A stretch of DNA of 64,000 nt from Haloferula rosea. GTDB lineage: Bacteria; Verrucomicrobiota; Verrucomicrobiia; Verrucomicrobiales; Akkermansiaceae. Below, piece by piece: positions 51,723 through 55,310 of the stretch; the first letter of the stretch is position 1; the number at the start of each line of letters is the position of its first letter. A model generated the notes under the pieces. The model was given only the letters and a program-made list of their open reading frames with translations, ran no database searches and was not told where the DNA came from. The stretch lies in assembly GCF_016595525.1 (NCBI RefSeq), contig NZ_JAENII010000003.1:124001-188000 (forward strand), in the 5' to 3' direction. A program made the translations under genes and the position numbers.

Positions 51723-52740
51723 TCCGCTCGTAAACCGCGAGCACCTTCCGGGTCATCGCATCCAGAGTCACTTCCCTGGCCACCAGCTCGAAGGAGGGCT
51801 TGAGCATCTCGCGCAGGCCCTCGAGGTCGCCGAGTGCCAGCTTCAGACCGCGCACCAGTTCATCGACCGAGTGGGTTTCCATCAGCGCCCCGTCCGGAAG
51901 GAACTCGGCGGCAAATCCCACCCTCGTGGAAATGCACGGCACATCCATGTGAAGTGCCTCGGCGAGCGTGTAGGGTCCACCCTCATTTCTCGACGCCACC
52001 ACGAACAAGTCGGCGCATCCCATCAGGCCCACCGCATCATCGCGGTGCCCCGCCATCCACACCCGCTCGCCGAGCTCGTGCTCTTCAATCAAGCCTTCGA
52101 GCATCTTCCGCTGAAAGCCGTCCCCGACGAGCCACAGCTTGAAGCCGGGCACCTGCGCAACGGCCTGAAGCAGCAGGTCCATGCCTTTGGCCGGGACCAG
52201 ACGTCCCACCGTGCAGAAGACGGGCTCCTGTCCACCGAGAAACGGAGGTTCCGTCGCCAACGCGGCCTCCTTGGTCCCTGCCGGAGGCGGCTCGATGGAG
52301 TTCCAGATCACCGTCGCGGGTAGTCCGCCGAGCGAATCCTTCACCTGCGCCGATGCCGTGATGATGGCATCGTAATCCCGGAACGGTTTCGCACTCCGCT
52401 TGATGTTCTGAACCGTGGCGACCCGCTTCATTTTCCCCAGCTTGTCACGCAGACTGCGAACCATCGCTCCCGCCTTGTTGGCATGGGCGTGGACGATCTG
52501 CGCCTGCGTGGAAACGATCCGCCGCTTGAGAGCCCCGAGGTTCCACGGGTTCAAGCGACCTCCGGACATCGGGTGCGCGACAAACCTCACGTCGGAGGAG
52601 AAGTGCTCCCGCATCGTCTCATCAGCCACCGCACTGACCTCGTGACCCAGTGATGCCTGGCGGTTGGCCAGCTCGATCACGTTCTTCTCCAGTCCACCCT
52701 TTTCCCCGACACTGGCTAGCACGTGACACACCCGGAACAT
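51712..52740 (-). CDS. Family 4 glycosyltransferase
   Basis: 342 residues of the GT-B fold. VASVGEKGGLEKNVIELANRQ is the N-terminal acceptor-side GG loop, FCTVGRLVPAKGMDLLLQAVA begins the sugar-nucleotide domain, and ASRNEGGPYTLAEALHMDVPCISTRVGF contains the EGxxxxxxE-type retaining motif of GT4. The ATG at 52740 is chosen over 52776. It is soluble or peripheral and probably adds a sugar to a glycan or lipid-linked acceptor. It is divergent from the CgeB-like gene, with about 130 bp between. Confidence 0.83.
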   Translation of the reverse strand: MFRVCHVLASVGEKGGLEKNVIELANRQASLGHEVSAVADETMREHFSSDVRFVAHPMSGGRLNPWNLGALKRRIVSTQAQIVHAHANKAGAMVRSLRDKLGKMKRVATVQNIKRSAKPFRDYDAIITASAQVKDSLGGLPATVIWNSIEPPPAGTKEAALATEPPFLGGQEPVFCTVGRLVPAKGMDLLLQAVAQVPGFKLWLVGDGFQRKMLEGLIEEHELGERVWMAGHRDDAVGLMGCADLFVVASRNEGGPYTLAEALHMDVPCISTRVGFAAEFLPDGALMETHSVDELVRGLKLALGDLEGLREMLKPSFELVAREVTLDAMTRKVLAVYERITA

Positions 52741-52872
52741 GGCGCGGAGCTTCCCGCCCGACGCACCAAACATCAAACCTCAAATCACCGCCGATGCATC
52801 GGCGAACCACCGACCACCCTGCCCTGCATCCGGGGATTTTGGCCATTGATCTCCGCGCTTGGGGGTTTGAGG

Positions 52873-53883
52873 ATGAAGGCCATGCGCATCGTTCATGCCG
52901 CCAATCTCCAACTCGACAAGGACGGGGCGCACCTGTGGAACCAGGATCAGAAGATCCATCACGGGTTGATCCGGCTCGGACACTTCGTCTACCCGTTCTC
53001 GATCAACGACCGCGCCCGCATGCTGTCGCCGACCGGCAGCAAGACCTTCGGCAAGGGCAAGGCGAACAAGGCTTTGCTCGAAACCTGCCGGAACGTCCAC
53101 CCGGACCTGCTGATCCTCGGGCATGCCCAATACATCTCCGCCGAAACTTTGGGAGAAATCCGAGCCATCCTGCCCGACATCCGAATTGGCCTGTGGTATG
53201 TCGACCCGCTATGGGACGAAGAGCCGACCCAGCACCTTCGCGAGCGGACCTCATTGCTCGACGGCCTGTTCTGCTCGACCGGCGGCCCGCTGCTGGAGTC
53301 CTTCGCCACCCCGAATTGCCCGACCCATTTCATCCCGAGTGCCGTCGATGCCGGCATCGAATGCCACCGTGCATTCGAGACCCCCGAGGAAGAGATCGTT
53401 CACGACCTGCTCTTCTTCGGCCGCGACAAGGGCCAACCCGACCGGCGTGCGTTTCTCCAGGACCTCCGTGACCGCCTGCCCGACCTCCGGGTCGGCTACT
53501 ACGGATGCCTCGACCAACCGCTCATCATGGGCTGGGAAAAGGAACAGATCATTCGCAAGTCCAAGATGGCGCTCAACCTCTCGCGCCGCAACGATGTCGA
53601 GCTCTACTCATCGTCACGCATCGCCGAGTTGATGGGCAACGGCATCCTCACCCTCACTCCCCAGGGTGCAGGACTTGAGAAGCTCTACGCTGAAGACGAA
53701 ATCGTTTACTACAACACCATCGACGACCTTGTCGAACGAGTGCGCCACTTCGCCAGCGCCACCGACGAGCGGGTCGCCATCGCGCGCAAAGGCTGGGAGC
53801 GGAACCACCGTGACTACTCCGGCACCGAAGTCGCCAGAATCATCGTCGATGGCATCAGCAGAGCCGGCAATCCTGCCCGTTGA
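52873..53883 (+). CDS. CgeB-like glycosyltransferase ending inside a REP repeat
   Basis: 336 residues. MRIVHAANLQLDKDGAHLW starts a GT-B-like N-domain; the C-domain has VHDLLFFGRDKGQPDRRAFL, then MALNLSRRNDVELYSSSRIAELMGNGILTLTPQGAG and EIVYYNTIDDLVERVRHFA. This matches the CgeB/glyco_trans_1_2 pattern (usually NVxREYSSxRxFEAxAxGxxxL). The ATG at 52873 is chosen over the upstream frame. The last residues (RAGNPAR and stop) are encoded by a repeat copy (53861-53919), so the original 3' end was probably changed by repeat insertion. Confidence 0.75.
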   Translation: MKAMRIVHAANLQLDKDGAHLWNQDQKIHHGLIRLGHFVYPFSINDRARMLSPTGSKTFGKGKANKALLETCRNVHPDLLILGHAQYISAETLGEIRAILPDIRIGLWYVDPLWDEEPTQHLRERTSLLDGLFCSTGGPLLESFATPNCPTHFIPSAVDAGIECHRAFETPEEEIVHDLLFFGRDKGQPDRRAFLQDLRDRLPDLRVGYYGCLDQPLIMGWEKEQIIRKSKMALNLSRRNDVELYSSSRIAELMGNGILTLTPQGAGLEKLYAEDEIVYYNTIDDLVERVRHFASATDERVAIARKGWERNHRDYSGTEVARIIVDGISRAGNPAR

Positions 53884-53919
53884 ACAAGCCACCAATCCCG
53901 GTTCCCCAACCCACTCCGC
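53861..53919. repeat. Partial copy of the RAYT-flanking repeat
   Basis: Sequence 53861-53919 matches the first 60 nt of the two full 116-bp repeats (after their CCCGTAAGGAG start), with a few changes. It contains the GCCGGCAATCCTGCCCG hairpin arms. It supplies the last codons and stop of the CgeB-like gene. The rest of the unit is missing. Confidence 0.7.
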
Positions 53920-53930
53920 ATAACCCGCAC

Positions 53931-54046
53931 CCCGTAAGGAGAGCGGGCAATCCTGCCCGCTGAACAACCAACCAACCCGGTTCCCCAACCCACTCCGCCG
54001 ATCCCTCAGCCCCAACCCTCACTTCTGCGGGCGGGATCGCCCGCAC
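53931..54046. repeat. 116-bp direct repeat, downstream copy
   Basis: Starts CCCGTAAGGAGAGCGGGC and is present again at 54686-54801 in the same orientation, with about ten differences. Two REP-type hairpins lie inside: GCGGGCAATCCTGCCCGC (7-bp stem with ATCC loop) and GCGGGCGGGATCGCCCGC near the end. It abuts the stop-codon end of the RAYT gene, which ends 3 bp away. Confidence 0.85.
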
Positions 54047-54049
54047 TCC

Positions 54050-54649
54050 CTACACATTTTTGGCGCGCTCGCTTTCCCACAAAGTGAAGTCCCCGGCTTT
54101 CAACTTCAGTGGGTTTCGCCGGATGTATCGAACCGCGTTCATGAAGTGGCGCCCGTCTCGTACCAAAGTGTCCCGGTATCCTCGCTGCCAGATCCCCCCC
54201 TGACCGATCTTCCGGGCTGAGATTCCCTTCCACTTGCGCAACAGGTCTGCGATCGGAGCCATAGGCCGGAACAGTAGATGAACATGATTCGGCATAATGA
54301 CCCATGCGTGATGCTCCACCATCACCCCTTCATCATACAGCAGGACAGCTTCCAACTGCTTCCGATACTCCTTGCTTCGAAGCAAACACGATCCGTAGCC
54401 AGCATCCAATCCGTCTTCCATCTCCCGAGTGAACCTCTCGTGATAGGCTTTCTCCGTGGCATCCTCCCATGGCTTCGGATGGTGACCCAGCCACACCTTC
54501 CTCTCCTGCGACCACTTCCTCAGTTTCGCTTCCGGCATCGAATCGCCAAGCCGGAATGTCACGAACTGCATGACCTCCCCCTGCTGCCAATGCGGCAGTC
54601 TCTTGCCATGCTTGCAAACCTCCTTCGAAGGATCGAAGAACTCACTCAT
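54050..54649 (-). CDS. REP-associated tyrosine transposase (RAYT)
   Basis: 199 residues of the Y1/IS200-like fold. The HUH metal motif is VIMPNHVHLLF (His122 and His124), preceded by LLYDEGVMVEHHAW. IWQRGYRDTLVRDGRHF and RYIRRNPLKL follow; the conserved Tyr before xRRNP is the likely nicking residue. Length fits RAYTs, which act on REP palindromes and are usually single-copy and vertically kept rather than free insertion sequences. Two 116-bp direct repeats with REP-like hairpins flank it. The ATG at 54649 is chosen because the fold starts there; the frame is open to 54748 through a repeat. Confidence 0.88.
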   Translation of the reverse strand: MSEFFDPSKEVCKHGKRLPHWQQGEVMQFVTFRLGDSMPEAKLRKWSQERKVWLGHHPKPWEDATEKAYHERFTREMEDGLDAGYGSCLLRSKEYRKQLEAVLLYDEGVMVEHHAWVIMPNHVHLLFRPMAPIADLLRKWKGISARKIGQGGIWQRGYRDTLVRDGRHFMNAVRYIRRNPLKLKAGDFTLWESERAKNV

Positions 54650-54685
54650 ACTCGAATGACACCCGCGCAACACCCCATCATCAAG

Positions 54686-54801
54686 CCCGTAAGGAGAGTG
54701 GGCAATCCTGCCCGCTGAACAACCAACCAACCCGGTTCCCCAACCCACTCCTCCGATTCCTCAGCCCCAACCCTCACTTCTGTGGGCCGGATCGCCCGCA
54801 C
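54686..54801. repeat. 116-bp direct repeat, upstream copy
   Basis: Same unit and orientation as 53931-54046: starts CCCGTAAGGAGAGTGGGC, continues with the shared AACCAACCAACCCGGTTCC segment and ends with a GTGGGCCGGATCGCCCGC hairpin (one arm changed). It lies upstream of the RAYT start on the coding strand, so it may include the transposase promoter. Confidence 0.85.
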
Positions 54802-54814
54802 CCTTTACCACCCC

Positions 54815-55264
54815 TTACGGCTCGGGATCTTCCGCGACTTCCTCGTCCTCCGGGGTCGCAGCGTCTTCAATTTTCTCCCCGACCCGTTTCAGCCACCGGC
54901 CAGTCGCATCACCTGCCTTGCGGAGGCCTTCCTCGGTCTTCTCCCCGGCGGTCTCAAGTGCCCCACCGGTTTTCTCCAGGGCGACTCCGACACCTTCCTT
55001 GGTCTTCTCACCTGCGACCTTCAGGCCATCGCCGGTTTTTTCGATCGCACCATCAAGGCGCTCTCCCGGTGTGGGAGAATCCTCTTCAGGTTCCTCGGCC
55101 TCCTCGCTCTCTCCCTCCACGGGAATCCCCGCAGCCGGGGGTGGAGTCGCAGGCGCCGCCTCAGCAGCGGGCTCCACCACGATTTCAGCCTTGGGCGGCT
55201 CTTCCTTGTCACAGGAAACAATCAACCCACACGCTCCGATCGCCAATATCCACGATGCTTTCAT
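54815..55264 (-). CDS. Acidic lipoprotein with EKT-type repeats
   Basis: 149 residues. MKASWILAIGACGLIVSC has a lipobox VSC. The mature part opens with a Pro/Glu/Ala region (EPAAEAAPATPPPAAG) and then carries tandem amphipathic segments: IEKTGDGLKVAGEKTKEGVGVALEKTGGALETAGEKTEEGL, i.e. about four 11-residue units like LEA or apolipoprotein-type repeats (split here for length: KTGDGLKVAGE; KTKEGVGVALE; KTGGALETAGE; KTEEGLRKAGD). The tail is acidic. It may coat or stabilise the outer membrane or bind lipids. It stands alone beside the RAYT repeat region. Confidence 0.7.
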   Translation of the reverse strand: MKASWILAIGACGLIVSCDKEEPPKAEIVVEPAAEAAPATPPPAAGIPVEGESEEAEEPEEDSPTPGERLDGAIEKTGDGLKVAGEKTKEGVGVALEKTGGALETAGEKTEEGLRKAGDATGRWLKRVGEKIEDAATPEDEEVAEDPEP

Positions 55265-55310
55265 CACCGATGCACTAACTTGGAATCCGATGGATGCCTA
55301 GAAAATCCGA

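Follow-up and report, generated by a model that had tools for sequence, protein, structure and literature searches.

The question raised by this locus is what kind of element holds a small transposase gene between two nearly identical repeats. A reading made from the letters of the 64,000-nucleotide stretch of DNA (that whole stretch is called the window here, and that reading the sequence-only reading) had proposed a REP/RAYT arrangement, with a complete Y1/HUH tyrosine transposase bordered by two REP-containing direct repeats. In window coordinates, the features are as follows.

53857-53933, plus strand: incomplete third unit that includes one REP (53858-53880, 3 mismatches)
53931-54053, plus strand: REPIN unit A, the left direct copy, from repeat comparison and DNA folding
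53934-53961, plus strand: REP A1, with head GTAAGGAG at 53934-53941 and hairpin AGCGGGCA-ATCC-TGCCCGCT at 53942-53961
54026-54053, minus strand: REP A2, with head GTAGGGAG at 54046-54053 and hairpin at 54026-54045, adjoining the 3′ end of the RAYT gene
54050-54649, minus strand: RAYT gene, 199 aa, flanked by the near-identical direct units
54686-54808, plus strand: REPIN unit B, the right direct copy, from repeat comparison
54689-54716, plus strand: REP B1, head GTAAGGAG plus hairpin, facing the 5′ end of the RAYT gene
54782-54804, minus strand: REP B2, decayed, with 4 mismatches to the consensus

The best NCBIfam family for the 199-aa product is REP_Tyr_transpos (58.8 bits, cut-off 80), Pfam gives Y1_Tnp (22.8 bits, cut-off 23), and the closest solved structure is PDB 4er8, the TnpAREP of E. 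coli (2.2e-5). Confidence is low (pLDDT 66) for a structure predicted from an alignment of 17 sequences; Foldseek with this model again returned 4er8 as the top PDB match (E 0.06). The HUH motif is H122-V-H124, and H122, H124, Y175, N179, and P180 are invariant across the 17 aligned RAYTs; from the conserved YIRRNP and the alignment with 4er8, Y175 would be the catalytic tyrosine. The guide motif reads WQRGYRDTLVR, and the protein carries NPLKLK, with K replacing G, where the signature given in the available text of PMC2817692 is NP(L/V)(R/K)xG. The gene has no second copy; the most similar other RAYT in the genome is 41% identical. Its nearest relatives in named organisms are from Akkermansiaceae and Verrucomicrobiaceae MAGs and from Rubritalea, in keeping with the suggestion that the genome is verrucomicrobial. 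Adjoining unit B, 54815-55267 (minus strand) encodes a small protein that is lipoprotein-like by prediction, contains repeated EKT..GL segments, and has no Pfam match.

The two direct units, described beforehand as near-identical over 116 bp, are 123 nt long and 93% identical at a spacing of 755, and 96% identical over the first 116 nt. The partial third copy was likewise recovered, with slightly wider limits than the 53861-53919 first given; it is 86% identical to 77 nt of the full unit and encodes the final residues and stop of a glycosyltransferase ORF (52723-53883), just as the TAG stop of the RAYT is supplied by the head of REP A2. The DNA fold of the unit has two stems of 8 bp each with loops of 4 nt (z -4.65; 0 of 200 shuffles equal). 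Each REP consists of an 8-bp stem, an ATCC-type loop, and a GTA(A/G)GGAG head that places GGAG at the foot of the hairpin. The unit reads GTAAGGAG plus AGCGGGCA-ATCC-TGCCCGCT on one strand and GTAGGGAG plus TGCGGGCG-ATCC-CGCCCGCA on the other. The hairpin pair is therefore one REP in two orientations, and the unit is an inverted REP pair, or REPIN; the sequence-only reading was right about two hairpins per unit but not about two separate palindromes. Since whole REPINs lie in direct orientation on both sides, the gene-proximal REPs, A2 (minus) and B1 (plus), border the RAYT as inverted copies. The heptamer TAAGGAG (e.g., 53935-53941) is common among the heads, and it is complementary to the anti-Shine-Dalgarno end of 16S rRNA. 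Nor is the unit larger than usual, as had been thought: its length of 112 nt, counted from GGAG to CTCC, is comparable to the two spacings, 71 and 110 bp between 16-mers, that are common among the REPINs of P. fluorescens SBW25 (PMC3116915, as excerpted).

The REPs are not confined to the locus. The pattern GGAGNGYGGGCRATCCYGCCCGC, allowing up to 3 mismatches, was found 17 times in the 4.68-Mb genome (69 contigs), and the reversed pattern used as control was not found at all. Seven of these copies, together with the decayed B2, form four REPINs, two at the RAYT locus and two at contig C11, and the other ten stand single; GTAA or GTAG precedes GGAG in 13 of the 17, read by eye. The family is thus dispersed and includes REPIN pairs, but it is small: populations of 91-323 REPINs are named in the accessible part of PMC8049555. 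Hairpins beside the other RAYTs of the genome differ (e.g., GGACC-GCGAGC-TTCA-GCTCGC at C5, locus L153), and hence the 17-copy family most likely belongs to the RAYT at 54050-54649. One single REP of this family is found about 120 nt downstream of a longer Y1-transposase-like gene (C9:394-1630, L024), whose frame has 366 aa.

Protein matches to the RAYT at E 1e-10 were found in 86 of 195 family genomes. Orthologues are 50-65% identical and are adjoined by tag-plus-hairpin REPs with species-specific stems; in a tag-anchored listing, all 50 RAYT loci (L043-L092, some being the same place drawn from two collections) have at least one candidate REP within 700 nt, and while the stems vary by species, the foot stays GGAG, or GGGG in a few. 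The first G of the head is not conserved. A tag-free count of 4-mers in hairpin flanks near 116 RAYTs also put GGAG at the top (229 of 892 flanks, from 446 hairpins), with 49 occurrences in the far set (332 hairpins). The generic pattern AAGGAGN{2,4}GRCANTCCTGYC occurs 462 times, in 52 of 190 family genomes, and its reversed control nowhere in the 190. It is present in 25 of the 31 genomes with a RAYT of the locus’s clade versus 27 of 159 others (Fisher p 1e-11, uncorrected for kinship), and the six clade genomes lacking it include some whose heads, TAGGGAG or CGGAG, the pattern cannot match. The sequence-only reading had named hairpins unrelated to the RAYT in other genomes as grounds for its own dismissal; the 50 loci and the genome counts instead show the two in association. 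Eight REP-positive genomes have no RAYT match at E 1e-10, and thus REPs can persist after a RAYT is gone or occur where none is detected. At loci L051 and L081, the REPs form tandem arrays by the RAYT: seven copies repeat every 38 nt on the upstream side, and four repeat every 26 nt on the downstream side.

How the GGAG foot might be read is suggested by one residue. Aligned to E. coli TnpAREP, the RAYT retains W94, Q95, and R104, while D replaces E100 and T replaces H101; these residues are treated together with the guide in the available portion of PMC6006769, and the guide contacts in that of PMC8266576. Heads could be called from at least 2 hairpins for 72 RAYTs, and 70 of them follow the rule that H101 goes with GT(A/G)G and T or R with GGAG (12 of 12 with H101, 58 of 60 with T or R; exceptions L108 and L153); with single-hairpin heads admitted, the rule holds for 97 of 104, with 7 exceptions. 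However, for these rows the tree shows a single change at residue 101, so that the association amounts to one contrast and is no proof of head reading. Pseudomonas RAYTs with GT(A/G)GGAG heads belong to subclass 2.5. The contrast would fit the remark in PMC6006769 that R occasionally replaces H101 in subclasses 2.5 and 2.7. Pairing between loop and head had also been considered, as the loops of the closest clade (TTCC, CTCC, ATCC, and CTTA) seemed complementary to the head; it was dropped as a general rule, since across all loci TCC-containing loops are no rarer with GTAG (7 of 20) or GTGG heads (10 of 21) than with GGAG heads (52 of 154).

Given the gene and its motifs, the REP and REPIN anatomy, the 17 dispersed copies, and the association of the clade with GGAG-footed REPs across species, the locus is very probably a REPtron, in which a single-copy HUH tyrosine transposase of the RAYT/TnpAREP kind has its cognate REPs on either side, in the form of two direct REPINs. 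Against this stand the profile scores, below the curated cut-offs in both NCBIfam and Pfam, and the modest number of REPs, 10 of 17 being single. By analogy with the TnpAREP of E. coli and of group 3, we infer that this RAYT binds, cleaves, and mobilizes REPs. It would bind a REP that folds while single-stranded in the course of replication, read the purine head at the foot of the stem (GGAG, within GTA(A/G)GGAG), form a 5′-phosphotyrosine link at a nearby CT-type dinucleotide, and join the strand elsewhere; REPs and REPINs would in this way be copied or moved in trans, and the RAYT gene itself would seldom move. That the same repeat borders the gene on both sides could also mean that repeats and gene are one IS200-like transposon moving as a unit, with the direct units as its ends. 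We regard this as very improbable, since the gene is single copy while REPs stand alone at many other places in the genome, which also argues against membership in IS200/IS605, and since each unit is an entire REPIN in direct orientation, not a left end paired with a different right end. More weight is due to a transposase domesticated for a host function, its REPs being relics or binding sites for RNA or protein, though we still consider this unlikely: TnpAREP is termed a domesticated transposase in the accessible text of PMC8266576, and the REP copies in this genome are few and partly decayed, but from one species to another REP stems vary in step with the RAYTs, and some genomes hold many near-identical REPs (the generic pattern matches 79 times in G036 and 67 times in G165, for instance).

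The RAYT at 54050-54649 belongs to a wider Verrucomicrobiales RAYT family in which some lineages lie in frame within essential genes, one of them in this same genome. The only leuS-grade match of the genome (C66:156532-159783; 956.9 bits with its neighbours, cut-off 548.4) is interrupted, and its other matches to the leuS profile fall below the cut-off and are, by score, related synthetases. This leuS (L174:1030-4446, minus strand) is an unbroken frame of 1139 aa with a RAYT in frame, 41% identical to that of the locus; the insert falls where the editing domain ends, between profile positions 363 and 370. In uninterrupted leuS genes of eleven genomes the site is occupied by a short loop that does not vary in length (VVQPNGDADWQGYTDPGTAVNSG and variants); a somewhat longer loop is seen in six other genomes, and seven yielded no frame with the anchors used. 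Longer loops without a RAYT occur at this site in L241 (G101), L227-L230, and L242 (G086), and they are possibly scars or REP-only inserts.

Many of the protein matches fall in very long open frames. Those of about 500 aa or more were picked by eye among the matches listed, and they yielded at least 45 frames over 450 aa that contain a RAYT, or 44 when L179 and L219, which are the same place, are counted once. A host reference is matched by 39 of the 44; in 38 the match extends to both sides of the RAYT, and in L197 to one side only because its contig ends; the five without a host match (L187, L203, L213, L214, and L216) may be chance frames. The 39 hosts among the matches listed are LeuRS (20), MetH (6), CarB (4), adenosine deaminase (3), a DUF5107-TPR protein (3), HsdR (2), and IspG (1), with one insertion site per host protein. 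Domain scans (Pfam and NCBIfam on eight reference frames, Pfam on seven more) place host domains on both sides of the RAYT in LeuRS, MetH, CarB, IspG, HsdR, and DUF5107-TPR, the RAYT domain itself passing only in NCBIfam, or by motif, in some frames. In the adenosine deaminase frames, Pfam recognizes only the part after the RAYT, and the part before it is conserved among the three; one of them (L209:1670-4297) has a Cas_NE0113 match near its start. Within their E-value limits, the Pfam scans returned only Y1_Tnp and host domains and no splicing domain, and the RAYT domain thus probably stays in the enzyme. Among the matches listed, HxH is kept in 39 of 39 nested RAYTs and a Y..NP-type motif in 36 of 39. 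Pairwise dN/dS of the nested RAYT part is 0.03-0.15 where unsaturated, with host parts much alike; for the pair L178-L208, the part taken as RAYT wrongly extended into the host. Outside the family, Pfam detects a RAYT within one AlaRS gene (L247) and one creatininase (L250); in a second AlaRS (L252), Y1_Tnp goes unreported at 1e-5, and the RAYT is recognized there by family match and motif.

Whether such nested RAYTs move or are merely inherited was approached through trees. On three versions of a tree of 134 RAYTs, the third built from core columns with the guide motif left out, host labels change 8, 7, and 7 times (minimum 7; average of shuffles 37), and RAYT lineages are thus bound to particular host genes. 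A LeuRS tree of 34 rows (17 interrupted and 17 uninterrupted, after trimming removed 3 interrupted and 7 others) requires at least 7 changes between the interrupted and the empty state, 4 of them on well-supported branches. AU tests were run on 18 genes with both trees: an 11-member clade of the LeuRS tree is rejected by the RAYT data (p 0.005), as is the pair L179+L202 (p 0.027), and two RAYT clades are rejected by the LeuRS data (p 2e-5 for each). The groups were chosen once the trees were known, which weakens these p-values. With that qualification, a single insertion followed by strict vertical descent is rejected. One ancient insertion per host gene, inherited vertically, often lost, and immobile, would account for one site per host, for the sorting of lineages by host, and for the smooth course of sliding identity in six close pairs, where a homing signature was sought and no clear step appears at the RAYT borders; patchiness taken alone could likewise reflect repeated loss. 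We nevertheless find this account doubtful, given the recurrent presence/empty changes on the LeuRS tree and the mutual rejection of the two trees, which we read as lateral movement into one site. Nested RAYTs are probably host-gene-specific in-frame guests that move laterally. On balance, and with only modest confidence, we favor the fuller view that Verrucomicrobiota harbor a host-gene-specific class of in-frame RAYTs: the HUH transposase, together with its REPs, would form an added domain of an essential enzyme at one loop site per gene, keep its active site, move laterally between alleles of that gene in a homing-like manner, and be protected by the essentiality of the host protein, the free-standing REPtron of the locus being a relative.

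RAYTs are known as lone, domesticated transposases, and their persistence is debated. Should RAYT lineages persist in frame in LeuRS, MetH, and CarB, this would give a direct reason for their not being lost; nested RAYTs would then join inteins, introns, and short palindromic insertions as one more class of guest within genes, and RAYT persistence would become testable, one genome having its only leuS interrupted. In-frame RAYTs within essential enzymes appear to be undescribed so far, no description of a RAYT or transposase domain within a housekeeping or host protein having been found in the literature searched, which was mostly open-access. Unexpectedly long TnpAY1 proteins were set aside as gene fusions or annotation errors in a phylogenomic survey (PMC6006769, in the sections available), and nested RAYTs could therefore have been lost there. 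Like inteins and homing endonuclease genes, nested RAYTs occupy one site in essential genes, are patchy, and form lineages tied to the host gene; unlike them, they are HUH-Y1 nucleases flanked by REPs, and the Pfam scans place no self-splicing domain in them. Rickettsia palindromic elements are also palindromic repeats in frame in protein genes (PMC3733652, as excerpted), but they are short and without a transposase, whereas the nested RAYTs carry a whole HUH transposase domain.

The locus itself adds a GGAG-footed REPtron outside Proteobacteria. A RAYT between REPs is an ordinary arrangement; the phylum is unusual, and the head differs slightly from those known. With the REPtrons of Gammaproteobacteria (E. 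coli yafM, Pseudomonas, and Stenotrophomonas), the locus shares an HUH-Y1 protein, inverted REPs by the gene, one REP type per RAYT, and dispersed REPs (available parts of PMC2817692, PMC6006769, and PMC8266576). It differs from E. coli in the hairpin foot, GGAG instead of GTAG, and in residue 101, and the closest REPs are those of Pseudomonas and Xanthomonas, with GT(A/G)GGAG heads (Table 1 of PMC2817692, seen as an extract). Set beside the RAYT criterion GT(A/G)G, the heads here are GTAAGGAG or GTAGGGAG and the foot is GGAG; REP subclasses without GT(A/G)G have been published, according to the portion of PMC6006769 available. The REPINs of P. fluorescens SBW25 are similarly inverted REP doublets with a spacer near a RAYT (PMC3116915, in excerpt), but they number in the hundreds, against four in this genome. 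Finally, the REP/RAYT system had been introduced as one known from Proteobacteria, but it has been reported beyond them: the accessible text of PMC3733652 describes REP families in the verrucomicrobium Opitutus terrae, of the same phylum as the present genome, with heads of GTAG or GTGG and with REPs, not RAYT genes, reported inside genes such as uvrA.
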